DNA from: Alicyclobacillus sp.
Lineage (GTDB): Bacteria; Bacillota; Bacilli; Alicyclobacillales; Alicyclobacillaceae
DNA: 56,029 bases
Direction: 5' to 3'
Assembly: GCA_023511725.1 (NCBI GenBank)
Contig: JAIMAY010000019.1
Location: 1 to 56,029, forward strand
A program made the translations under genes and the position numbers. Within the stretch, counting starts at the first letter, position 1, and each line of letters starts with the position of its first letter. Positions 1,718 through 38,949 of this stretch are shown here, piece after piece. The notes under the pieces were generated by a model, which saw only the letters and a program-made list of their open reading frames with translations, searched no databases and had not been told where the DNA came from.

Positions 1718-2146
1718 TCAGCTCATGGCACGGATGCGCTCGTCAATCTTCGCCTTGGGCAGGATGAACTGCACGACCTCACCTTCGCCAATCCGGGCCT
1801 TGTCATGCTCGGCCCACACACGGCAATCGACGCGGCTGTCGGACACGTCCGTCACTTCCGCGTAGAAGCGGACCGTCTTTCCGACCGGCGCTGGGGCCAG
1901 ATGCTTCACCGACACGCCACCGCCGATGCCTTCCTCACCTTCAGCAAGGTACGGGAGAATCGTCAGACGAGCCACCCACTCCATATAGTACACCATGGTG
2001 ACCGTCGACATCGTCCGGTGCACCACCTGCCCCTGAAAAGCCGGGCACATGTCGTCCGTCACTGTGATCTCCCAGGTTTCCACGTGCCCTGGCTGAAGAC
2101 CCGGTTTCAATGCAGCGCCACCCCTTATCTTGTGTGCTGTTTTCAC
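1718..2146 (-). CDS. Hotdog-fold thioesterase, fluoroacetyl-CoA thioesterase (FlK)-like
   Basis: A 142-residue protein resembling the FlK-type hotdog thioesterases. It has the N-terminal LKPGLQPGHVETW segment, VVHRTMSTVTMVYYMEW with the conserved Glu, and the GVSVKHLAPAPVG stretch with the conserved His. The GTG start at 2146 overlaps the TGA of the upstream hydratase as GTGA and follows AAGGGCAG, so translation is probably coupled. In the paa operon such an enzyme may hydrolyse dead-end CoA thioesters and release trapped CoA, as PaaI does in proteobacteria. That role is inferred from context. Confidence 0.75.
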   Translation of the reverse strand: MKTAHKIRGGAALKPGLQPGHVETWEITVTDDMCPAFQGQVVHRTMSTVTMVYYMEWVARLTILPYLAEGEEGIGGGVSVKHLAPAPVGKTVRFYAEVTDVSDSRVDCRVWAEHDKARIGEGEVVQFILPKAKIDERIRAMS

Positions 2147-2913: not shown

Positions 2914-3218
2914 GGCTCCACCACGTCTCCTACCATCATGTAGACGATGTCGCCGGCGAAGCTCATGACGTCCTTTGCGGCAGCCTTGTTTTCCGGCGAC
3001 TTCATGGCCTGACGGTAGGTCTCCTCATCCTTGAAGTACATCTCCGCCAGCAGGTAGTACTGCGCCTCGCCGCCCATCACATCGCTGCGGATGCGCGTCA
3101 CCTCGAGCTTCTCAAGACCGGGGATCTGCCGTGCCAGCGGCGCGTGCACGTTCGCATAATGCTCGTCGAACGCCGCCTTATCAACCGGATGTTTGTACAG
3201 GACGACCAGTTTCACCAT
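2910..3218 (-). CDS. EthD-family protein
   Basis: A 102-residue protein with the EthD dimeric alpha+beta barrel pattern: MVKLVVLYKHPVDKAAFDEH at the N-terminus, then HAPLARQIPGL and a C-terminal hydrophobic strand. The ATG at 3218 follows AAAGGAG by 11 bases. Its TGA overlaps the GTG of the hydratase. Members of this family occur in aromatic and ether degradation clusters, but their reaction is mostly unknown. I assign no function beyond probable membership of the phenylacetate pathway. Confidence 0.75.
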   Translation of the reverse strand: MVKLVVLYKHPVDKAAFDEHYANVHAPLARQIPGLEKLEVTRIRSDVMGGEAQYYLLAEMYFKDEETYRQAMKSPENKAAAKDVMSFAGDIVYMMVGDVVEP

Positions 3219-3296
3219 TCGTATCACCGCTCCTTTGGATGGGCATGGGCGGAGGTACCGCCGCATCGCCATGAATGTGGGATCTCCGTTGGATCA

Positions 3297-4634
3297 TCAG
3301 CGGCTGGGGTACAGTTGCCGCTTGTCGATGATCCGCACGGCTTTGCCTTCGCTGCGCGGCAACTCTCCCGGCCGGCAGAGCCGAACCTCGGTGGTGACGC
3401 CGAGCGTGTGCTTGAGTGCCTCGGCCACACGGTGCGTCAAGCGCAGCACTGCCTCGTGCTCGGGATGGAAATCGCCGATGGCGCCGGCGAACGCCTCGGT
3501 GACCTCCGCCAACAGGGTGATGGTGTCGAGGGTACCCACCCTGTCCACGACCACCTGGTAGTGCGGCGCCAGCTCCTCGATGTTCAGCACCACGGCCTCC
3601 ATCTCGGACGGGAACACGTTGACGCCGCGGATGATCAGCATGTCGTCGATCCGCCCCTTGATCCGCGACATCCGCACATGCGTGCGCCCGCACCGGCACG
3701 GTTCGGGAATCAGGCTGGCGACGTCACCTGTGCGGTAGCGGATGACCGGCAGCGCCTCCTTCGTCAGCGACGTGAACACCAGTTCGCCCGTGGCGCCGAG
3801 AGGAAGAGGATTACGCGTGGCTGGATCAATGACCTCGACCAGGAAGTGATCCTCCGCCACGTGCAGCCCTTCCTGCGCTTCGATGCACTCGATGGCCACC
3901 CCCGGGCCCATCACCTCGGACAAGCCGTACACGTCCATCGCCTTCAGCCCGAACGCCTGCTCGAGCGTCCGCCGCATCTCCTCCGACCACGGCTCGGCAC
4001 CGAAGATCCCGTACTCCACACCGCTCGCCGCCGGATCCTTGCCCATCTGCCGCATCGTCTCAGCGATGTTCAGCACGTACGACGGCGTCCCTGCAATTCC
4101 GCGCGGCCGCAGGTCTTCAATCAGCGTCACCTGGCGCGGCGTGTTGCCCCCCGACACCGGCACCACCGTCATCCCCAGGCGCTCCGCCCCGTAGTGGAAG
4201 CCGAGCCCGCCCGTGAACAGACCGTAGCCGTAGATGACGTGGAACACATCGCCCGGACGACCGCCCGCCGTCACAATCGCGCGCGCCACGCACTCGCTCC
4301 AGTTCTCGATGTCGCGCCGCGTGTACCCCACAATCGTCGGTTTCCCCTTCGTGCCCGACGATCCGTGGATCCGCACAACCTCCGTCCGGTCCACCGCCAG
4401 CATCCCAAACGGATACTGCTCCCGGAAATCCTTCTTGCGCGTGAACGGCAGTTTTACCACATCGTCCACACTGCGGATGTCCTCCGGCTTCACCCCGTGA
4501 TGGTCGAACAACCGGCGGTAGAACGGCACCCTCTCGTACACCCGCTGCACCGTCTCCACCAACCGTTCCGACTGCAGACGCCGCAACGCCTCGCGCGGCA
4601 TGGTCTCCAACTCCGGCTGGTACATCATCGGCAT
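3297..4634 (-). CDS. paaK: Phenylacetate--CoA ligase
   Basis: A 445-residue PaaK-type adenylate-forming ligase. It shows the family N-terminus YQPELETM...RLVETVQRVYERVPFYRRLF, the AMP-binding loop SSGTKGKPT, YGLSE in the A5 region, YRTGD in A7 and a C-terminal AMP-binding_2 domain (from about residue 335) with GVNVFPSEME. It converts phenylacetate, ATP and CoA to phenylacetyl-CoA, the substrate of PaaABCD. AAAGGAGG lies 4 bases before the ATG at 4634 and 10 bases before a second ATG at 4628; either could be used. About 330 bp separate it from paaD. Confidence 0.95.
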   Translation of the reverse strand: MPMMYQPELETMPREALRRLQSERLVETVQRVYERVPFYRRLFDHHGVKPEDIRSVDDVVKLPFTRKKDFREQYPFGMLAVDRTEVVRIHGSSGTKGKPTIVGYTRRDIENWSECVARAIVTAGGRPGDVFHVIYGYGLFTGGLGFHYGAERLGMTVVPVSGGNTPRQVTLIEDLRPRGIAGTPSYVLNIAETMRQMGKDPAASGVEYGIFGAEPWSEEMRRTLEQAFGLKAMDVYGLSEVMGPGVAIECIEAQEGLHVAEDHFLVEVIDPATRNPLPLGATGELVFTSLTKEALPVIRYRTGDVASLIPEPCRCGRTHVRMSRIKGRIDDMLIIRGVNVFPSEMEAVVLNIEELAPHYQVVVDRVGTLDTITLLAEVTEAFAGAIGDFHPEHEAVLRLTHRVAEALKHTLGVTTEVRLCRPGELPRSEGKAVRIIDKRQLYPSR

Positions 4635-19401: not shown

Positions 19402-21882
19402 ATGAACCTCGTCGAACTGCTGTACCAGGCTGTGGAGCGGTACCCGGACAAAGACGCGCTGCGCGTCAAGCGCAACGGCAAATACGAGGGGATCACCTTC
19501 CGTGCGTTGTGGGAGCAGATTCACGCGTTTGCCAACGGCCTGCGCCTGTGCGGCGTGAAGGAAGGCTCCAAGGTCGGTATCATTTCGACCAACTGTCCAG
19601 AGTGGCCGATCACGGATTTCGCCACACTGCTGATTGGCGCCGTGCTGGTCCCGGTGTATCCGACGCTGCCCGCAGGCCAAGTGGAGTACATCCTACGCAA
19701 CGGCGACGTGGAGATCCTCGTGGCGCAGGATGAGAGCCAGTACGAGAAGGTGAGGGATCACTGGCCTCCGCTGCTGCGCCGCGTGATTGTCATCCAGGGG
19801 TCCGGCATCAGCCTGGATGGACGCGTGATCTCCTTCGCCAACGTGATGGAGATGGGGCGCAACCCGCGGGGCAATCTGGCACCCATTCATTTCCGCGCGA
19901 TTCCGGAGGACAGCCTGGCCACCATCGTTCACACCTCAGGCACCTCGGGACAGCCCAAGGGCGTCATGCTGTCGCACCGAAACATCGTGTCGAACGTACA
20001 GTCGGCACTGACCACCCTGCCGGTGGGTGCGGAGGACGTCAGTTTGTCGTTCTTGCCTCTCTCGCACATTTTCGAGCGGACGGTCGGTCAATACGCCGCA
20101 CTGTCTGTGGGTGGCACTGTTGTGTACGCCGACAGCGTGGACACTGTGCCGCAACAGCTGCTCGAGGTGAAGCCGACCATCCTGATCACGGTGCCGAGAT
20201 TGCTGGAGAAGGTTTACGCCAAGGTGCAGGAAAACCTCGCCCATGCACCGGCTCCCGTCCGCCGGATGGCGGAGCAGGTCTCGAGCCAAGGCAAGGCCAG
20301 CGGTTTTCAGTACCGCTTGGTCGACCGTCTCGTCTACCGCAAGCTCCGCGCGGCGCTCGGCGGCCGCATCCGCTACGTCGTGTCGGGCGGTGCCGGGCTG
20401 AATGCGCAGATCGCCAAGTTCTACATCGGCGCCGGCATCCCCATCTACGAGGGTTACGGCATGACGGAAGCGGCGCCCGTGATTGCGGCCAACCCGTACG
20501 GCGCCAGCCGCCCGGGCACCGTGGGCAAGCCCATCCCCGGCGTGGAGGTGCGCATTGCCGAAGACGGAGAACTGCTGGTGCGCGGACCGAACGTGATGAT
20601 GGGCTACTACAAGCAGCCGGACGAGACGGAAAAGACGATTGACCCCGATGGATGGCTCCATACCGGCGACATCGCGGAACTGGATCCGGACGGGTATCTG
20701 CGCATCGTGGACAGGAAGAAGAACATCCTGGTGCTGGCGACGGGCAAGAACGTCGCACCATGGCCCGTAGAAAACGCCATCATTCTCAGCCGCTATATCT
20801 CGGAGGCCGTTCTGCTTGGCGACGGCCGCAAGTACGTGGCATGCATCCTCGTGCCCGACTTCGAAGCGCTGGCGCCGCTGGCGAAGGAACTGGGCCTCGC
20901 AGAAGATAAGACGACGTGGGTCAGGCACCCGCAGATCCGCAGCCTCATCGGCCGGGAGGTCGCCAAGCAGACGGAAGGTTTTGCGGATTTCGAGCGACCC
21001 AAGCGAGCCATTCTGTTGCCGCGTGAACTGTCGCTGGAGGATGGCGAGCTGACGCCGTCGCTGAAGGTTCGGACCAAGGTGCTCATGCAGAAGTACGGGC
21101 GTGAGATTGAGCGGATGTACGAAGGCATCGACTACATCCCCACGCTCGAAGGTGCCGGCACGCCCGGGCCGATGGGCGACGTGAACCCAGCAACCGACGA
21201 TGCGGCCCCCGCGACGGTGGCGGCCGTGGCGGTGACGGGTGCAGCCACGGCGGCAGCGCAGCAAGGCGCGGCCCCCGCGGTGACACCCACACCCGCGCGC
21301 ACTGGCGCGTCGTCTGCGGCAGCGGAGAGGAGGCGACGCCGGCGGCGGTGGCCCTGGGGCGTGGCGGCCATCGTGGTGATTGCCTTGGCGGCGGCTGCAA
21401 TGCACGCCCATGCGATGAATCCGACGGCGAGCCCGTTGCCGAAGCAGCTCAATCTGGTCGGCATGGTCTCTGACATCCGCAACAAGAACGACAAGTTGAA
21501 TCAGGTGAACGGGCAGATTGTGCAGTCGATGGAGCAGATCAGCAACATGTCCGAGACCACGGCATCCATCAGCAACAAGCTGGGGACGCTCAGCGGCGGT
21601 CTCAAGAACCAGTATGCGGCGCTGTCCACCTTGAACGACCTGAGCCAGCAAGAGGTGGATCTGAGCAACAGCCTGCACGGCCTGTCGATCACGGCCTACA
21701 CCGACATGCAGCGCATCGGCCAGGCTTCGAAGACGCAGGATGCGTGGATGCAGCAAATGCAGAGTCTGGCGCAGCAGCTCGGCGGTGCGGCGGGGCAGCT
21801 CGTGACCATTAACCAGACGATGGCGGGCAAACTCGACACCGCGCGCCAGAAGGCCGCGCACGTGGCCAGCGAGATGCCGTGA
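19402..21882 (+). CDS. Long-chain acyl-CoA synthetase fused to a transmembrane coiled-coil domain
   Basis: An 826-residue chimera. Residues 1-582 form a complete long-chain fatty-acid:CoA ligase: TSGTSGQPKG at 178-187, GYGMTE at 351-356, TGD at 421-423, DRKKN at 437-441, and Lys449 in ATGKNVAPW. Residues 590-648 are an Ala/Pro/Thr linker ending in an Arg cluster. About 650-672 is one hydrophobic helix. About 680-826 is a Gln/Asn/Ser/Thr-rich coiled coil. Typical FadD-type ligases stop near residue 600. The Arg-rich flank predicts the enzyme in the cytoplasm and the coiled coil outside. Four genes for similar membrane-anchored coiled coils follow. SD: GGGGGGAC before the ATG. Confidence 0.9.
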   Translation: MNLVELLYQAVERYPDKDALRVKRNGKYEGITFRALWEQIHAFANGLRLCGVKEGSKVGIISTNCPEWPITDFATLLIGAVLVPVYPTLPAGQVEYILRNGDVEILVAQDESQYEKVRDHWPPLLRRVIVIQGSGISLDGRVISFANVMEMGRNPRGNLAPIHFRAIPEDSLATIVHTSGTSGQPKGVMLSHRNIVSNVQSALTTLPVGAEDVSLSFLPLSHIFERTVGQYAALSVGGTVVYADSVDTVPQQLLEVKPTILITVPRLLEKVYAKVQENLAHAPAPVRRMAEQVSSQGKASGFQYRLVDRLVYRKLRAALGGRIRYVVSGGAGLNAQIAKFYIGAGIPIYEGYGMTEAAPVIAANPYGASRPGTVGKPIPGVEVRIAEDGELLVRGPNVMMGYYKQPDETEKTIDPDGWLHTGDIAELDPDGYLRIVDRKKNILVLATGKNVAPWPVENAIILSRYISEAVLLGDGRKYVACILVPDFEALAPLAKELGLAEDKTTWVRHPQIRSLIGREVAKQTEGFADFERPKRAILLPRELSLEDGELTPSLKVRTKVLMQKYGREIERMYEGIDYIPTLEGAGTPGPMGDVNPATDDAAPATVAAVAVTGAATAAAQQGAAPAVTPTPARTGASSAAAERRRRRRRWPWGVAAIVVIALAAAAMHAHAMNPTASPLPKQLNLVGMVSDIRNKNDKLNQVNGQIVQSMEQISNMSETTASISNKLGTLSGGLKNQYAALSTLNDLSQQEVDLSNSLHGLSITAYTDMQRIGQASKTQDAWMQQMQSLAQQLGGAAGQLVTINQTMAGKLDTARQKAAHVASEMP

Positions 21883-21939
21883 GGGGCGGAGGATGAGCGA
21901 GTTTCCCAGAAACCACGCTTGGAAAGGAGTGCAGGGGGC

Positions 21940-22449
21940 GTGATCGGCAAAGTTCTCGGAACCATCGGCGTGGTGGCGCTGTTCGGCGTGTTGGCGCAGA
22001 CGCAGGTGACCACGTACTACCTCGCGAAGATCGATATCGGGCTCAACTCCAGCCTGGACTCCACGCGCCGGCTGGTTACCGTCGAGCAGGCCATCATCGA
22101 TAAGAATAAGACGCTCGGGACCGTGATCCAACAGACGAAACAAATGGATCAGCAACTCGCCAGCACGCTCAGCGAGACCTTGACGATTGAGCAACACATC
22201 TTCCGGATCAACGATTTGAACGCGGCCACGCTCACCATCAACCGCGAGATGGCGCAGGTCGGCAATGCCGGGGCGCAGACGCTGACGGACGTGTCGGACA
22301 CCATGTCCAAGCTGAATCAGGCCACCTTGGCGCTGGGCAACTATCTCGCTTCACTGCGCCAGGTGGTGCTGCAGGACCGGCAGAACATGGACCTGATGAA
22401 GCAATACACGGATGAGATGAACCAAAAGACCCCGGAGGTGGGAGGATGA
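21940..22449 (+). CDS. Membrane-anchored coiled-coil protein 1, unknown function
   Basis: 169 residues. An N-terminal hydrophobic helix (VLGTIGVVALFGVLAQ) is followed by ~140 polar residues in heptad-like order rich in Gln, Asn, Ser, Thr and Leu, ending YTDEMNQKTPEVGG. GTG at 21940 follows AAAGGAG by 10 bases; an in-frame TTG upstream is less likely. Its TGA overlaps the next start as ATGA. I recognise no family. It looks like the periplasmic part of a chemoreceptor without HAMP or signalling domains. Confidence 0.82.
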   Translation: MIGKVLGTIGVVALFGVLAQTQVTTYYLAKIDIGLNSSLDSTRRLVTVEQAIIDKNKTLGTVIQQTKQMDQQLASTLSETLTIEQHIFRINDLNAATLTINREMAQVGNAGAQTLTDVSDTMSKLNQATLALGNYLASLRQVVLQDRQNMDLMKQYTDEMNQKTPEVGG

Positions 22450-22964
22450 GCGCCCTCAAGAGCATCGGCGTGCTGAAGCTCCTGGCCGTGATTGCGCTGC
22501 TCGGCCTCGGGGTCAATGGTCTGATCCAGGTGAGTCTGCAGCGGGATATGCAGAACAAGACCCAAGAACTGGCGCAGCGCACAGCCCAGGCCGTGCAGTT
22601 GTCAAAGCAGATGAACAACGGGCTGGTCAATCTGAGTGAACTTCAGAAGACCACCCAGCATATGCACAGCACGCTTGTACAGTTGCACCAAGCCACGTCG
22701 ACGATGAATCAGGGTCTTGCCACGCTGAACACGACGGTGCAGGGGATCAACCAGGCGGTGGCCGACATTGGCTCTTCCACCGCGGCGTCCAGCCAGCAGA
22801 TCAGCGCCGCCACCCAGCAGGCGGAATCCCTGCTCAGCGTGCTGCAACAACTGGCACAGATCAACCAGGACGTGGTGAGCAACCTGTCGCAGATGGTGGC
22901 AGACCAACAGGCCATCAATGCTGACCTAGAACAGATGAATCAGAAGACTCGTTATTTGCCGTGA
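22446..22964 (+). CDS. Membrane-anchored coiled-coil protein 2, unknown function
   Basis: 172 residues. One N-terminal hydrophobic helix (IGVLKLLAVIALLGLGVNGLI), then a long predicted coiled coil with repeated Q(L/M)xxxM, TxxM and QxxxSL steps and a C-terminal EQMNQKT. Its start overlaps the previous stop by 4 bp and follows GGAGG. Composition and layout match its neighbours, suggesting paralogues that assemble together. No known domain seen. Confidence 0.85.
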   Translation: MSALKSIGVLKLLAVIALLGLGVNGLIQVSLQRDMQNKTQELAQRTAQAVQLSKQMNNGLVNLSELQKTTQHMHSTLVQLHQATSTMNQGLATLNTTVQGINQAVADIGSSTAASSQQISAATQQAESLLSVLQQLAQINQDVVSNLSQMVADQQAINADLEQMNQKTRYLP

Positions 22965-22995
22965 CATCGGCGGCACGCGAAGGGGGGAATACCGG

Positions 22996-23805
22996 ATGGT
23001 CGGACTGAGCCTGGCACGCGACAAACGGGTGATCGTCGGCTTGCTGGCCGTGCTCGTGGTAGTGGGCGGCGTGGCCGCAGCACCGAAGGCGTTGGCCGGC
23101 GTCAAAACGCCGGATTTGCTAAAGAACAACATTTTCGCGCTGATTGACCAGATGAGCGGTACGACAGACGGGCTGCTCGCCAACACCGGTGCTCTGCATC
23201 AGCAGATCCAACAGGTGGAGGGGCAACTGGGCGAACTAGGCCAGCAGGATCAGATTGTCTCGCAGCAACTGCAAACGACGCAGCAGTTGCTGCAGGCGCT
23301 GTCGACGCAGGAGGATCTCACGCGCAACGGCGTGTCGCTGATGCAACAGATCATGTCGCGCGAGGAGGTCAGCGTGTCGCTGACGCATCAGGTCGCGACA
23401 CAGGCGCAGCAGATGAGCGGAGCCGTGCAGGGGAACGTGCAGGCGCTGAATCATGTGCTGTCCTCGCTCGCCGCCAGCAACACCGCCTCCGAGCAGATGA
23501 ACAGCAAGATGGATCAACTGCTGGCCGAGTTGTCCGATGCGGAGGATAACTTCAAGGTGTTCGGCCAACTGAACAGCATCCTGAACTCGCTGCACCTGCA
23601 GCTGCCCAAGCTGCCGTCGGTGAACCTGCCGAAACTGCCAAACCTGCCTATCCTCGGCGGCTCCGGTGGAGGAACATCCAGCGGCGGATGGTCCTCGGGA
23701 TCCGGCGGAACATCTTCCGGGAACACGACGAGATCCGGCGGCACGAGCTCCGGTGGCGTCCTGGGCACCATCGGCAACGCCGTCGGTTCACTTCTCGGCT
23801 GGTGA
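22996..23805 (+). CDS. Membrane-anchored or secreted coiled-coil protein 3 with Gly/Ser-rich tail
   Basis: 269 residues. A basic N-terminus and hydrophobic helix (VIVGLLAVLVVVGGVAAAPKALA) could be a membrane anchor or a cleavable signal (Ala-x-Ala near residue 35). A ~150-residue Gln-rich coiled coil follows. The C-terminal third is low complexity: LPKLPSVNLPKLPNLP, then ~45 residues of Gly/Ser/Thr, ending GTIGNAVGSLLGW. GGGGGGAA precedes the ATG. The short amphipathic end after a flexible linker could be a docking or membrane-touching element. Family unknown. Confidence 0.82.
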   Translation: MVGLSLARDKRVIVGLLAVLVVVGGVAAAPKALAGVKTPDLLKNNIFALIDQMSGTTDGLLANTGALHQQIQQVEGQLGELGQQDQIVSQQLQTTQQLLQALSTQEDLTRNGVSLMQQIMSREEVSVSLTHQVATQAQQMSGAVQGNVQALNHVLSSLAASNTASEQMNSKMDQLLAELSDAEDNFKVFGQLNSILNSLHLQLPKLPSVNLPKLPNLPILGGSGGGTSSGGWSSGSGGTSSGNTTRSGGTSSGGVLGTIGNAVGSLLGW

Positions 23806-23821
23806 CAAGGAGGCGACACCC

Positions 23822-24352
23822 GTGGCCAAATCCATCGCCATTTCCGCCATGTTGTGGCTCGCCGGGCTCGCCGGTGCGGGTATGTTCGGCTACAGCCTGA
23901 CGCAGCAGACGGCCATCCAGCTGCAGATGAACCAAACCATGAAGCAGATCAACCAGTCCATCGCGACCTCGAAGAAGCTCACGCAGCAGACGTCGGTGAT
24001 TCTTCAGCCGCTGGTCGGCACCACCGAGGCGCTGGCCGGCATAGAGCAGCTGGAGACGCAATCCCTGTCCGACATTGAGTCGATGAACAACCACCTGCGC
24101 GATATCGCCAAGGGCGAACAGGGCATCATCACCGGCTTGGATCACCTGAATGTCGTCACGGATCAGGCCCGAACCGGCCTCATCCGGCTGGCCTCGCTGA
24201 ACGGACAACTGCTGGATGCCAACCAGCAGACCGCCTCGATGGCCGCCGAGGAGGCCACGCGGGTCAGTCAACTCAACAGCATGACGGAAACGACCATCGC
24301 GCAGATGCACCAACTAAATCAGAAATTTGCCGCGCTGAAGATGGTGCCGTGA
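23822..24352 (+). CDS. Membrane-anchored coiled-coil protein 4, unknown function
   Basis: 176 residues starting at a GTG that follows AAGGAGG. One N-terminal hydrophobic helix (ISAMLWLAGLAGAGMFGYSL), then a polar helical region with QMNQTMKQINQSI heptads, ending QMHQLNQKF. The (M/L)NQK ending is shared with proteins 1 and 2. It is the last gene of the five-gene operon, 16 bp after protein 3. No recognised domain. Pairwise similarity to the other members is in pattern rather than strict identity. Confidence 0.82.
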   Translation: MAKSIAISAMLWLAGLAGAGMFGYSLTQQTAIQLQMNQTMKQINQSIATSKKLTQQTSVILQPLVGTTEALAGIEQLETQSLSDIESMNNHLRDIAKGEQGIITGLDHLNVVTDQARTGLIRLASLNGQLLDANQQTASMAAEEATRVSQLNSMTETTIAQMHQLNQKFAALKMVP

Positions 24353-24374
24353 CGGCACAGACCAAAAGCCCCAT

Positions 24375-24423
24375 GCCGGCCCACCGGATACGCCAGCCGC
24401 AAAAAAGCTGGCGGTGGGCCGGC
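24375..24423. terminator. Large hairpin behind the coiled-coil operon
   Basis: Outer stem GCCGGCCCACCG (24375-24386) with CGGTGGGCCGGC (24412-24423); inner stem CCAGC (24393-24397) with GCTGG (24407-24411) and an A-rich loop. It lies 23 bp past the last stop of the plus-strand operon. No U-tract follows on either strand, so it may end transcripts weakly or protect RNA 3' ends. Confidence 0.55.
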
Positions 24424-24556
24424 GCGAAATCCAACATGCGCCCGGACACCCCTCCTCGACCGTGGCTCAGGCGCGGCGCCAAGGGGCCCGCGTGGCGCGC
24501 CACCCGCTGCTCCGCATGCCCGCGTCTTCTACCGGAGGCCGCCGCACATTCGGCAG

Positions 24557-24590
24557 AAAAACGACAGGAGCGGACCTTCCGATCCGCTCC
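24557..24590 (-). terminator. Intrinsic terminator of the c-di-GMP riboswitch
   Basis: On the minus strand: GGAGCGGA / TCCGCTCC (8-bp perfect stem, 8-nt loop) at 24590-24567, followed within five bases by TTTTT (24561-24557). It begins 15 nt after the riboswitch aptamer and is its likely expression platform. Confidence 0.8.
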
Positions 24591-24605
24591 ATCCCGTCGC
24601 AGATC

Positions 24606-24697
24606 CCGGAAGGCAGCTGGCTGGCATGTGCCGCGTGGCACGAAGCCCCTCTAGCTTTGCGTCCCTGCCTTTCGGCAGGTTTGCCCTGAGACACCGG
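24606..24697 (-). ncRNA. Cyclic di-GMP-I (GEMM-I) riboswitch
   Basis: Read on the minus strand, the aptamer shows the conserved GEMM-I core: CAGGGCAAACC, a GNRA-type hairpin TGCC-GAAA-GGCA, GGGACGCAAAGCT, a second hairpin GTGCC-ACGC-GGCAC, and the closing ATGCCAGCCAGCTGCC. Known members bind c-di-GMP and switch downstream expression. A terminator follows at 24590-24557. Unusually, no sense gene lies downstream on this strand: the next DNA is the 3' end of the plus-strand coiled-coil operon. The nearest upstream minus-strand gene is galE, 160 bp away. Identification is by motif; a covariance-model search would settle it. Confidence 0.92.
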
Positions 24698-24791
24698 TGT
24701 ATGATGTCGCATGGATGCATGCCGAGCCGTGAGACCTCGGACGGTCCGCCGCATGACCACCATGGTCATTCCGGCTCATGCCTGTACTTTG

Positions 24792-24821
24792 ATTTTACAC
24801 CAGATCATTCCTTGCCTGCAA
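24792..24821 (-). promoter_or_regulatory. Candidate promoter of the c-di-GMP riboswitch RNA
   Basis: On the minus strand: -35 TTGCAG (24821-24816), 18-bp spacer, -10 TAAAAT (24797-24792), about 90 bp before the aptamer and inside the short interval behind galE. It would make the riboswitch an independent transcript. Read-through from galE is the alternative. Confidence 0.55.
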
Positions 24822-24858
24822 GTGATTCACGGCTGGCATCGGGGTCCCGAGCGCCTCG

Positions 24859-25848
24859 TTACGCTGTATAGCCGTTCGGATGCGTGCTGTGCCAGCGCCA
24901 GGCTGAGGCAATGATGTCGCGCAGGTCCGGGAACTGGGGCTGCCAGCCCAGTACCTCCCGCGCGCGCCGCGAGGACGCGACGAGGACAGCGGGATCGCCC
25001 GGGCGGCGCGGCGCGTCCTGCACCGGAATGTCGCGTCCCGTGACCTCCCGCGCGGTGATGATCACCTGCTGGACCGAGAACCCCTGCCCATTGCCGAGGT
25101 TGTATGCCTCCGCACCGACGTGCTGCGTGCGCAGACGCGCCACGGCAAGCCGGTGTGCGCTCGCCAGGTCCATCACATGGATGTAGTCCCGGATGCAGGT
25201 CCCATCCGGCGTCGGGTAATCCCGCCCAAACACCTGCACACATGGACGCTGCCCCAGCGCAGCCTGGAGCACGATGGGGATGAGGTGTGTCTCCGGTCGG
25301 TGGTCCTCCCCGATGGGCAGGCCGGGGTGCGCGCCCGCCGCGTTGAAGTAGCGCAGGCTGATGGAGGACAATCCGTAGGCGGCATGACACCAGTGCAGCA
25401 TCCGCTCAATCGCCAGCTTCGTCTCGCCGTATGGGTTGGTGGGCTGCTTCGGATCGTCCTCTTCAATCGGAGTACGCACGGGTTCACCGTACACCGCCGC
25501 AGTCGAGGACAGAACGAACCGCTTCACGCCTTCGGCAATCAGCGCCGACAACAGCTTCTGCGTCCCCGTCACATTGTTCGCGTAGTACTTGAGCGGATCC
25601 TTCACACTCTCGCCCACCAGCGAGTTGGCCGCGAAGTGAATGACAGCATCCACGCCGTGGCGCCCGATGATCTCCCGCACCGTCCGCTCATCCTGAATGT
25701 CCGCCTCGTAGAATGGCGCCCCCAGCACAGCCCCGCGGTGGCCCGTGCCCAGGTGGTCGAGCACCACCACCTCTTCGCCGTGCGCCACCAGTTCCGCGAC
25801 CGTGTGGCTACCGATGTACCCGGCGCCTCCGGTTACCAGGATGGCCAT
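24859..25848 (-). CDS. galE: UDP-glucose 4-epimerase
   Basis: A 329-residue extended SDR protein with TGGAGYIGSH at the N-terminus for NAD, the Ser-Tyr-Lys catalytic set in LSSTAAVYG and NPYGETK, and GIRDYIHVMDLA-like CIRDYIHVMDLA. It interconverts UDP-galactose and UDP-glucose in the Leloir pathway. Its start lies within the 3' end of galK (16-bp overlap). Last gene of the MFS-galT-galK-galE operon. Confidence 0.96.
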   Translation of the reverse strand: MAILVTGGAGYIGSHTVAELVAHGEEVVVLDHLGTGHRGAVLGAPFYEADIQDERTVREIIGRHGVDAVIHFAANSLVGESVKDPLKYYANNVTGTQKLLSALIAEGVKRFVLSSTAAVYGEPVRTPIEEDDPKQPTNPYGETKLAIERMLHWCHAAYGLSSISLRYFNAAGAHPGLPIGEDHRPETHLIPIVLQAALGQRPCVQVFGRDYPTPDGTCIRDYIHVMDLASAHRLAVARLRTQHVGAEAYNLGNGQGFSVQQVIITAREVTGRDIPVQDAPRRPGDPAVLVASSRRAREVLGWQPQFPDLRDIIASAWRWHSTHPNGYTA

Positions 25849-27059
25849 ACCCGCATCGCCTCCTCCGTCACCTCGTGCACGCCGTCACCGGCGTCGCTCA
25901 CGTAAAACGTGGGCTGCTTGCCCGTCGCCGCTTGATAGGCGCGTGTGACCTCCGCCTCAAAGGCGTCCAGGGCGTCCGCCTTCACAAGGCTCACGGTGCA
26001 ACCACCGAAACCCGCCCCCGTCATCCGCGATCCATAACAGCCCGGCGCATTCCACGCTGCCTCCGCCAGGGCATCCAAGGCAGGCCCGGTCACCTCATAG
26101 TCGTCGCGCAGCGACACGTGCGACTCGTTGAGCAGGCGTCCGAAGCCGATCACGTCCCCCGCCGCCACCCGCCTCGCCGCCTCACGTACCCGCGCCTGTT
26201 CCGTGACGACGTGGCGCGCCCGCCGGCGCAGCACATCATCCGTCAGCCGGGACTCCAGCGCGGGCCACTCCTCGGGGGGGATGTCGGCGAGCGCGCGTAG
26301 CGCAGGACGAACCTCCCGCAACAGCGCGAGCGCCCGCTCACACTCCGCGCGCCGCTGATTGTAGGCGGAATCCGCGAGCCCCCGGGTGTGGTGGGTGTTG
26401 GTGATCACCACGCGCGCGTCACCCAGATGCAGCGGAACCCATTCGCAGCGAAGCGTGCCGCAGTCGAGCAGCATGGCGTGACCTGCCCGCCCCGCCGCGA
26501 CCGCGAACTGGTCCATGATGCCGCATTGCACACCGATGAACTCGTTCTCTGCGCGTTGTGTGAGCAGGGCGAGATCGGCCGCGGGTAGGGTGCGGTCCGC
26601 GAACGCCGCCATCGCCGCCGCCGTCACCACCTCAATGGCGGCCGAACTGGACAGCCCAGCGCCGCTCGGCAGGTTGCTCGCGAACAGCATGTCCGCCCCC
26701 TGCACCGGTACGCCCGCCTGCGCCAACGCCCACAGCGCACCTTTGGGATAATTGGCGAAGCCGTCCGCCGCGGTGAACGCCAGATCCTCGGCTTGGGCCG
26801 TCACCTCGCCGGGGAAGGTGGTGGATGCAAACCGCAAGACGCCGTCCCATCTCGGCCTCACCACAGCCCACGTACCAAGCGTCAGCGCGGCCGGGAACAC
26901 CAGCCCGCCGTTGTAGTCGAGGTGCTCGCCGATGAGGTTCACGCGGCCCGGGGCGAAAAACACGCGCACCTGCTCCGCCGGCCCTGGCGACCAGCGGGCA
27001 AACTGGTGCAACGCCTCCACCAGTTCCCGCGGGGCATGCGCAGACCCGGACTGGGTCAT
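25833..27059 (-). CDS. galK: Galactokinase
   Basis: A 408-residue GHMP kinase. GRVNLIGEHLDYNGG is the galactokinase signature near residue 40, LPSGAGLSSSAAIEV is the ATP-binding GHMP motif, and the C-terminal GRMTGAGFGG motif appears here as SRMTGAGFGGCTVSLV. It phosphorylates galactose with ATP. The ATG at 27059 overlaps the galT stop as ATGA. Confidence 0.96.
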   Translation of the reverse strand: MTQSGSAHAPRELVEALHQFARWSPGPAEQVRVFFAPGRVNLIGEHLDYNGGLVFPAALTLGTWAVVRPRWDGVLRFASTTFPGEVTAQAEDLAFTAADGFANYPKGALWALAQAGVPVQGADMLFASNLPSGAGLSSSAAIEVVTAAAMAAFADRTLPAADLALLTQRAENEFIGVQCGIMDQFAVAAGRAGHAMLLDCGTLRCEWVPLHLGDARVVITNTHHTRGLADSAYNQRRAECERALALLREVRPALRALADIPPEEWPALESRLTDDVLRRRARHVVTEQARVREAARRVAAGDVIGFGRLLNESHVSLRDDYEVTGPALDALAEAAWNAPGCYGSRMTGAGFGGCTVSLVKADALDAFEAEVTRAYQAATGKQPTFYVSDAGDGVHEVTEEAMRVWPSW

Positions 27060-28036
27060 CGCGCCTCCCCCTTTCCCTGGGCCGCGCGGATGGCCTCACG
27101 CAAGCGCGGTGCGGTTTGCTCCACCGCCGTCGGGTTACACGGTGCCCACGCGCCCGTCTCGGACGACGCCAGGTACTTGATCTTATCCTTGTCTCGCAGC
27201 GGCGGGTAAAACTCAATATGAAAATGGTAGTACGCCTGCGTATCCGGCCGATGCGGCGGTGTTTGATGAAGCACCATCATGTACGGAAACGGCCGGTCAA
27301 ATAGCTGATCCATCCCCGCCACCACACGCCGCAATATCCGCGCCAGGTCATCCTTCTCCGCGTCCGTCATCTCCGGCAGCGCACCCAGGTGGCGCCGGCT
27401 CGAGATGAACACGCCATACGGGTAGTCGGTGAAAAACGGAATGTACGCGAGGAAATGCTCCGAGGCATCGACCACGCGCTGGCCCACCCGCTCTTCCTCC
27501 GCCTGGATGTCGCAGATCAAGCAGCGCCCCGTCTGTGCGTGGTGCGCCTCGCACTGTTGAAGCTCCACCCGGATCTTGAGCGGGATGTATGGATACGCGT
27601 ACAGCTGACCGTGCGGATGCGGCATCGTCACACCGACCTCCGGGCCGCGGTTCTCGAAGATGAGGATGTACGCATGCTGCGGGTCCGCCGCGAGTGCTGT
27701 ATACCGATCCGTCCACAGGTCCACCAGTTTCCGGACATGCGCATCCGACAACTGCGGCAGTGTGGCGTGGTGATCCGGAGAGTACAGGATCACCTCGCAC
27801 TTGCCGTAGGCTGGCGCCGTTCTGTATAGCGGCGTTGCCACCGAGTCTGGCGCTGGCGGGTTCGGGGACAACGCTGGAAAATCGTTGTCGTAGGCCAGCA
27901 CATCGTAATCATCCGGCACCCGGCCGGATCCCGGGCAGAACGGACACCAGTCGGTCGGCATGAGCGGCCGCTGCTGGCGGTGCGATGCCACCATCGTCCA
28001 GTCCCCCAGCAGCGGGTTCCAGCGAAGTTCAGACAA
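27056..28036 (-). CDS. galT: Galactose-1-phosphate uridylyltransferase
   Basis: A 326-residue HIT-superfamily enzyme. Zinc ligands are suggested by CPFCPGSG near the N-terminus, and the catalytic nucleophile lies in MPHPHGQ (HPH). LHQTPPHRP and HFHIEFYPPLR near the C-terminus are also typical. The TTG start at 28036 follows AAAGGAG by 10 bases. It exchanges UMP between UDP-glucose and galactose-1-phosphate. Confidence 0.95.
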   Translation of the reverse strand: MSELRWNPLLGDWTMVASHRQQRPLMPTDWCPFCPGSGRVPDDYDVLAYDNDFPALSPNPPAPDSVATPLYRTAPAYGKCEVILYSPDHHATLPQLSDAHVRKLVDLWTDRYTALAADPQHAYILIFENRGPEVGVTMPHPHGQLYAYPYIPLKIRVELQQCEAHHAQTGRCLICDIQAEEERVGQRVVDASEHFLAYIPFFTDYPYGVFISSRRHLGALPEMTDAEKDDLARILRRVVAGMDQLFDRPFPYMMVLHQTPPHRPDTQAYYHFHIEFYPPLRDKDKIKYLASSETGAWAPCNPTAVEQTAPRLREAIRAAQGKGEAR

Positions 28037-38717: not shown

Positions 38718-38925
38718 AAGCTTTCGCGCATCCCTCCGGGCAGGTCTCCTGGCTCTCAGCACGGGTCCCCGGCGCCTTCCCAGCGGGCGGCCCGCGGCGC
38801 ATCGCCGCAAACCGCACCCCCAGTGACACCGGCCCATCGCACGCTGATCACAGTGGCGGGACCGCATCGGATTTTCACCGATTTCCCTATTCTCTCTCGC
38901 GAATTGCGCGAGAGCACCCGGAAGG
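38718..38925 (-). ncRNA. Cobalamin riboswitch
   Basis: On the minus strand the conserved elements appear in order: GGGAAATCGGTGAAAATCCG, GCGGTCCCGCCACTGTGA, the GTCACTGGG segment, CTGGGAAGGCGC, and the B12 box AGCCAGGAGACCTGCC (about 38754-38739). An upstream 9-bp stem GCTCTCGCG/CGCGAGAGA-like helix starts the structure. About 220 nt of leader separate it from btuF and should hold the expression platform. It senses adenosylcobalamin and represses the btu-cob operon when B12 is plentiful (family knowledge). Confidence 0.97.
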
Positions 38926-38949
38926 TCGATGTGCTGATTGTCCACTCCC

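Follow-up and report, generated by a model that had tools for sequence, protein, structure and literature searches.

The stretch of Alicyclobacillus sp. DNA analysed here (56,029 nucleotides, hereafter the window) encodes a c-di-GMP-I (GEMM-I) riboswitch on the minus strand, between galE and the 3' end of a convergent operon for coiled-coil-like proteins. We read it, with a probability of roughly 0.53, as a termination riboswitch that was stranded from its sense gene when galT-galK-galE moved between the operon and its old neighbour. Antisense-oriented c-di-GMP riboswitches are an already predicted class, and the window is a new case of this known kind. The region contains the following features:

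19402 to 24352, plus strand: operon encoding an AMP-binding protein that has a coiled-coil-like tail, followed by four short proteins of coiled-coil-like appearance (by eye); the operon recurs in relatives
24273 to 24437, minus strand: ORF of 54 residues preceded by a Shine-Dalgarno match, taken as non-coding from codon score, Pfam and relatives
24375 to 24423, no strand assigned: strong hairpin after the operon stop, with A6 in the loop (plus strand), not immediately followed by a T-run on either strand
24567 to 24590, minus strand: intrinsic terminator stem-loop from the terminator scan, with a T-run to 24557
24599 to 24613, minus strand: predicted 5' strand of an antiterminator (CCUUCC, 2-nt bulge, GAUCUGC), pairing with 24587-24575
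24609 to 24695, minus strand: c-di-GMP-I aptamer (RF01051, 70.3 bits; model R1, 100.8 bits)
24694 to 24697, minus strand: 5' arm (CCGG) of an outer P1-like helix, pairing with 24609-24606 in the minimum free energy (MFE) fold of 24700-24555
24696 to 24858, minus strand: 163-base spacer from the galE stop to the aptamer, with no terminator found and a promoter-like match at chance level
24859 to 25848, minus strand: galE (PF01370, PF16363), the next same-strand gene upstream of the riboswitch
25833 to 28036, minus strand: galK and galT (galactokinase, GHMP kinase and GalP_UDP_transf models)

A first-pass annotation had placed a GEMM-I aptamer on the minus strand between galE and the last stop codon of the operon (24352). 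Its coordinates, orientation and location proved correct in a check with the Rfam covariance model RF01051, which the aptamer (24695-24609) matches with 70.3 bits (E 8.4e-12), above the gathering score of 35, in an alignment that spans model positions 1-87 and is not cut off. The aptamer contains GGCAAA, GCAAAG and the final GCC, which may correspond to the ligand-contact bases G20, A47 and C92 (Vc2 numbering). It is of a sequence type marked by CUA-N-AGGG and by CAGCCAG-Y-UGC on the 3' side, as defined from the 13 aligned sequences of this type from which a second covariance model (R1) was built; its 100.8 bits against R1 were obtained with the aptamer itself in the training set. The RNA is real and intact-looking and is a predicted c-di-GMP sensor. 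c-di-GMP-I matches are widespread, with 59 of 61 genomes containing them, the source genome included, and the source assembly (2.66 Mb, 76 contigs) encodes four such aptamers. The window also contains a cobalamin riboswitch (38722-38936, minus strand, 101.6 bits) and the 5' part of a group II intron (RF02001, 1-58, minus strand, 49.1 bits), the latter cut off by the window edge.

The R1 model gave 53 matches in 50 sources, one of which (L168) was dropped as it lies at the same place as L294. The resulting 52 rows comprise the best fetched places for R1 and the three other aptamers of the source genome; the set was not drawn at random, and each orthologue in it counts on its own. All 51 other rows have a sense candidate behind the aptamer, and the window row alone is without an accepted one. 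By the Shine-Dalgarno rule alone, 45 of these 51 rows pass, as does the window, and the remaining six have same-strand ORFs of 168-668 residues without a Shine-Dalgarno match. Targets among the rows include EAL and PAS-GGDEF-EAL proteins as well as proteins with signal-peptide-like starts (by eye). The source genome's other three aptamers, which are of the general type and score lowest or near lowest of the rows (42.5-62.8 bits), face an EAL protein, a MazE_antitoxin-domain protein and a 276-residue protein without a Pfam match. Terminator-like hairpins were identified in 31 of 51 distinct aptamers, that of the window included.

Further candidate orphans among these rows were rejected. The aptamer of L066/L179 had been considered a second orphan facing a convergent gene (purU-like by eye), but a 61-residue sense ORF without a Pfam match, presumably YjfB-like, lies between the two (3135-3320, plus strand, in L179). 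L002, from the source genome, carries the MazE_antitoxin-domain gene behind its aptamer, and sense ORFs are present in L026/L178, L277, L283, L289, L291 and L294. Short sense ORFs of 45-61 residues follow the aptamers in L066/L179, L165 and L279; those of L165 and L279 (45 and 53 residues, from two genomes) are similar-looking, membrane-like and directly behind the aptamers. In L055/L158 (the same place), an A replaces the first G of GGCAAA, presumably the position that marks 3',3'-cGAMP-type riboswitches, and the aptamer precedes a secreted-looking 251-residue protein. L275 contains two divergent c-di-GMP-I aptamers, 1804-1907 (minus strand) and 2045-2144 (plus strand), 137 bases apart. The source genome also encodes a homologue (33%; L194, 1261-2838, minus strand) of a secreted-looking protein that is preceded by aptamers in L060, L068, L148 and L150. 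This homologue was rejected as the target of the window riboswitch, since nothing ties the two together and none of the genome's four aptamers lies on that contig.

Downstream of the aptamer, a terminator scan confirmed the intrinsic terminator of the first-pass annotation, with 10 pairs between 24590 and 24567, a GGAA loop and the T-run to 24557. It is the single terminator found on both strands of 24300-25000, compared with a mean of 0.3 in 50 shuffles. Two competing states are predicted in the fold of 24700-24555: one with the outer helix, in which CCGG (24697-24694) pairs with 24609-24606, and one with an antiterminator, in which CCUUCC and GAUCUGC (24613-24599) pair with GCGGAUCGGAAGG (24587-24575) and would sequester the 5' arm of the terminator. 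The hallmarks of a termination riboswitch, a terminator and a competing antiterminator that overlaps the outer helix, are thus both present as predictions, with competition confined to the CCUUCC half, which overlaps the outer helix; the GAUCUGC half (with GCGGAUC) is compatible with that helix, and both form in the fold at 24575. The duplex between the antiterminator and the 5' half of the terminator has a predicted energy of -21.1 kcal/mol, which was reached by 25 of 2,000 shuffles that preserve dinucleotides, by 4 of 2,000 that preserve mononucleotides and by 5 of 5,000 19-mers drawn at random from the window; the tested segment had been picked after the fold was seen.

With the RNA 3' end at 24575 to 24569, the antiterminator state is predicted to be better than the outer-helix state by 3.3-5.9 kcal/mol, and from 24567 on, where the terminator is complete, the outer-helix state with the terminator is favoured. 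Since the ligand should hold the outer helix, the platform is tentatively assigned as an OFF switch. This direction is tentative because the GAUCUGC half coexists with the outer helix and because a longer leader removes that helix: when the leader is extended to 24785, the MFE fold retains the terminator and loses the outer helix. Two inverted 13-base arms, 24570-24582 in the terminator and 24737-24749 in the leader, are 92% complementary, either as a further competing pairing or by chance.

The first pass had also assigned the riboswitch a candidate promoter of its own, which was not borne out: a promoter scan reported none, and the score of the best hexamer pair in the spacer between galE and the aptamer (8/12) was reached in 258 of 500 shuffles. 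The terminator scan likewise found no terminator between galE and the aptamer, so gal transcripts may enter the aptamer. This absence is weak evidence, because the same scan found a terminator within 163 bases behind galE in just 2 of 11 relatives and none in the other nine. The closest match of the source galT, among the matches listed, is from Alicyclobacillus herbarius (75%).

According to the first-pass annotation, no sense gene follows the terminator. None was accepted here, but one minus-strand ORF of 54 residues (24437-24273) with a non-coding-like score passes the Shine-Dalgarno rule, with AGGAGG 13 bases away. Its codon score of -0.27 per codon is one that only 0.1% of window-gene slices fall as low as and that 66.8% of antisense slices reach; the score was trained on the same window genes that were used for the slices and was computed for the window ORF only, and the first 29 codons alone score 0.017, a value that speaks for neither reading. 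The ORF has no match in Pfam, and in 60 relatives it has two weak matches, both with stop codons inside. The hairpin falls within its first half, and its second half runs antisense to a conserved gene. The presence of such an ORF is mildly unusual, comparable ORFs being held by 34 of 1,000 shuffles and found antisense to two neighbouring operons once in 4,951 bases and not at all in 3,178 bases. On the codon score, the missing Pfam match and the two stop-interrupted matches it was rejected as a sense gene, and we take it to be non-coding, with some room left for the contrary. The sense gene that a cis-acting riboswitch would control is thus represented behind the aptamer by a sole candidate that is not coding-like and is possibly the truncated start of a relic; nothing recognisable as the remains of a lost sense gene was found.

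Gene order was compared in relatives, of which 60, together with 40 other family genomes, were searched; none of these is of the same genus. The last gene of the coiled-coil operon is matched in 16 of the 60 relatives, and 15 of these loci were fetched (14 from the same family and one from the same order), L050 being left out as a broken fragment. All five operon genes match in all 15 loci, the first gene only partially in L143, and none of these loci contains gal genes. Conversely, galT-galK-galE occur together, without the operon adjoining, in 11 loci of relatives (nine from the same family and two from the same order). Downstream of the operon, 7 of the 15 loci carry one or more of the CoA-binding, DUF420 and second MFS genes, and the other eight carry none of them. 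L131 encodes the operon, a convergent first MFS gene and then the CoA-binding gene, which is the order of the window without gal. The CoA-binding, DUF420 and second MFS genes were named by eye with no Pfam run, as were the coiled-coil, signal-peptide, purU and glycosidase-like assignments.

Since the operon and the gal genes each occur alone in relatives, and in view of the order in L131, the gal block probably moved in between the operon and the gene that is likely to have adjoined it before. This ancestral order rests on seven relatives, and the full order on one, because eight of the 15 lack the window's right-hand neighbours. The riboswitch lies within 506 bases at the left junction of the gal block; on the right side, the gap between galT and the MFS gene is 32 bases. 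The comparison of synteny proposed in the first pass thus located a changed neighbourhood at the riboswitch junction, but revealed no lost sense gene. A rearrangement is the simplest explanation for the placement of the riboswitch.

Neither Rfam nor R1 detected a c-di-GMP-I aptamer in the 15 operon loci, one of which (L138) is visible for just some 250 bases beyond the operon, and R1 detected none in the 11 gal loci of relatives. With R1, none was detected in 80 galT loci scanned with up to 6 kb of flanking sequence, where one 15.1-bit match (E 0.54) was taken as chance, nor in 11 of these 80 loci when rescanned with Rfam. The 80 loci are the best-matching ones among at least 574, and some are from the same genomes as the 11 gal loci. 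An initial aptamer regex, which misses members, had no match among 29 further galK loci and 29 further galE loci, and covariance models were adopted because of these misses. A scan of a collection of genome contigs with the last coiled-coil protein gave no relative.

Read-through beyond the terminator would enter the last gene of the operon (23822-24352) as antisense RNA. Pfam gave no informative match for the coiled-coil parts of the operon. The end of the aptamer (24609) lies 257 bases from the operon stop (24352) in opposite orientation, within the 500-nt limit used for antisense placement in passages of PMC9943018, and the geometry would allow antisense RNA to extend into the operon. The hairpin at 24423-24375, which has a 9-base loop outside the reportable range of the terminator scan, stands in the path of such read-through; the 90 bases from the operon's stop codon fold with -39.6 kcal/mol. 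Conservation, a supporting and not strictly defining criterion of antisense action, was not observed, as the arrangement is not kept in the operon loci of the 15 relatives.

For the stranded riboswitch, we infer a rearrangement origin, feeding from gal transcription, an OFF direction and the lack of a selected target. Polymerase leaving galE, or coming from another start, would transcribe the aptamer. When c-di-GMP is bound, CCUUCC and CCGG would be held in the outer helix, the terminator would form and the RNA would end near 24557. In the ligand-free RNA, 24613-24599 would pair with 24587-24575 as the antiterminator, and some RNA would continue into 24556-24352, where it would meet the hairpin before running antisense into the last gene of the operon. 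The main effect would be a conditional end of gal-derived RNA, and any effect on the operon would be incidental. This origin is consistent with the position of the riboswitch at a place where the gene order is unlike that in relatives, with its status as the sole row of 52 without an accepted sense candidate, with the lack of c-di-GMP-I aptamers in the 15 operon, 11 gal and 80 galT loci, and with the presence of the aptamer, the terminator and a predicted antiterminator. Against it stand an aptamer and platform without the obvious decay expected in an old relic, the few relatives behind the ancestral order (7 of 15, with the full order in one), the tentative OFF direction, the weak evidence from the terminator missing behind galE and the lack of a recognised remnant of the lost gene.

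The first pass had offered a relic, an antisense switch and a free-standing sensor as possible readings, an interpretation that was supported in part. The relic fits best; the antisense switch is favoured by orientation alone and is opposed by the lack of an aptamer in the 15 relatives and by a promoter match at chance. As a selected switch, low c-di-GMP would lead to antisense RNA or a colliding polymerase that lowers the operon, and high c-di-GMP would release the operon by termination. The intact-looking platform, the orientation and the 257-base distance are in line with this, as are the 152 antisense (versus 2,554 sense) c-di-GMP riboswitches already predicted in passages of PMC9943018, but with the strong hairpin in the read-through path in addition to the two objections above we consider it unlikely, if still credible. 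A c-di-GMP-gated excludon, in which gal transcription and c-di-GMP would jointly set the conserved coiled-coil operon via antisense read-through, appears rather unlikely. The riboswitch might instead be kept for its own sake as a 3'-UTR element of gal, where c-di-GMP would set the end of the gal mRNA and hence its stability; it shares the strand of galE, begins 163 bases past the galE stop and has no other terminator beside it in this spacer, yet the 11 gal loci and 80 galT loci of other genomes contain no aptamer, making such a role improbable.

Control of a short sense product, such as the ORF at 24437-24273, either as it stands or as the truncated start of a gene since lost, would account for the AGGAGG match and for an ORF that is scarce in shuffles and on the antisense strands of neighbouring operons, and it has parallels in the short ORFs behind the aptamers of L066/L179, L165 and L279. 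It is quite improbable, given a codon score as in non-coding sequence, no Pfam match, stop-interrupted matches in relatives and an ORF that is half antisense to a conserved gene and holds a hairpin in its other half. A free-standing sensor or sponge RNA that ends at the terminator would resemble merRNA of Bdellovibrio (passages of PMC3627812) in combining an orphan aptamer with a terminator. Such an RNA needs abundant expression, and the single aptamer, with a promoter match at chance and no counterpart found in the compared loci, makes it very improbable. Finally, an assembly misjoin beside galE is barely credible: the arrangement is from one assembly of 76 contigs, but two misjoins would be needed, because likely old neighbours flank the gal block on both sides, as in L131.

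In terms of known systems, the window element resembles RF01051 riboswitches in aptamer sequence and structure (70.3 bits), terminator and predicted antiterminator; it differs from them in having no accepted sense gene and in sitting at the 3' end of a same-strand operon. c-di-GMP riboswitches showed the strongest bias, with the lowest P-value, among 27 families in the passages of PMC9943018 used here, before which only two antisense-acting riboswitches had been described according to the same passages. With such riboswitches (SAM/ubiG of Clostridium acetobutylicum, cobalamin/pocR of Listeria and the predicted set of PMC9943018) it shares placement past the 3' end of a gene on the opposite strand at less than 500 nt, but the window case is known from sequence alone and was not found in the operon loci of relatives. 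merRNA of Bdellovibrio bacteriovorus, an orphan c-di-GMP riboswitch RNA and proposed reservoir in passages of PMC3627812, likewise has no conserved ORF behind it; it is a massively expressed RNA of 445 nt, whereas the window element is a single aptamer, with a promoter match at chance, predicted from its sequence. Passages of PMC9943018 further describe transposase cases, in which insertions lie beside riboswitches that served other genes. Common to these and to the window would be inserted DNA that leaves a riboswitch facing a gene it does not serve; in the window, the inserted block would be a gal operon, and no former sense gene was identified. Expression of Clostridium difficile c-di-GMP riboswitches is reported in PMC3649979, the available passages of which mention no antisense case, and a literature search on Alicyclobacillus, riboswitch and c-di-GMP returned nothing related by title.

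If the riboswitch acts on the operon as an antisense switch, it would provide an experimental handle on a class that is known mostly from prediction. If it is a relic, a rearrangement that stranded a working riboswitch beside a convergent operon would represent a route by which such placements originate. The relic would then be raw material for antisense control, and would advise caution against inferring function from orientation alone.
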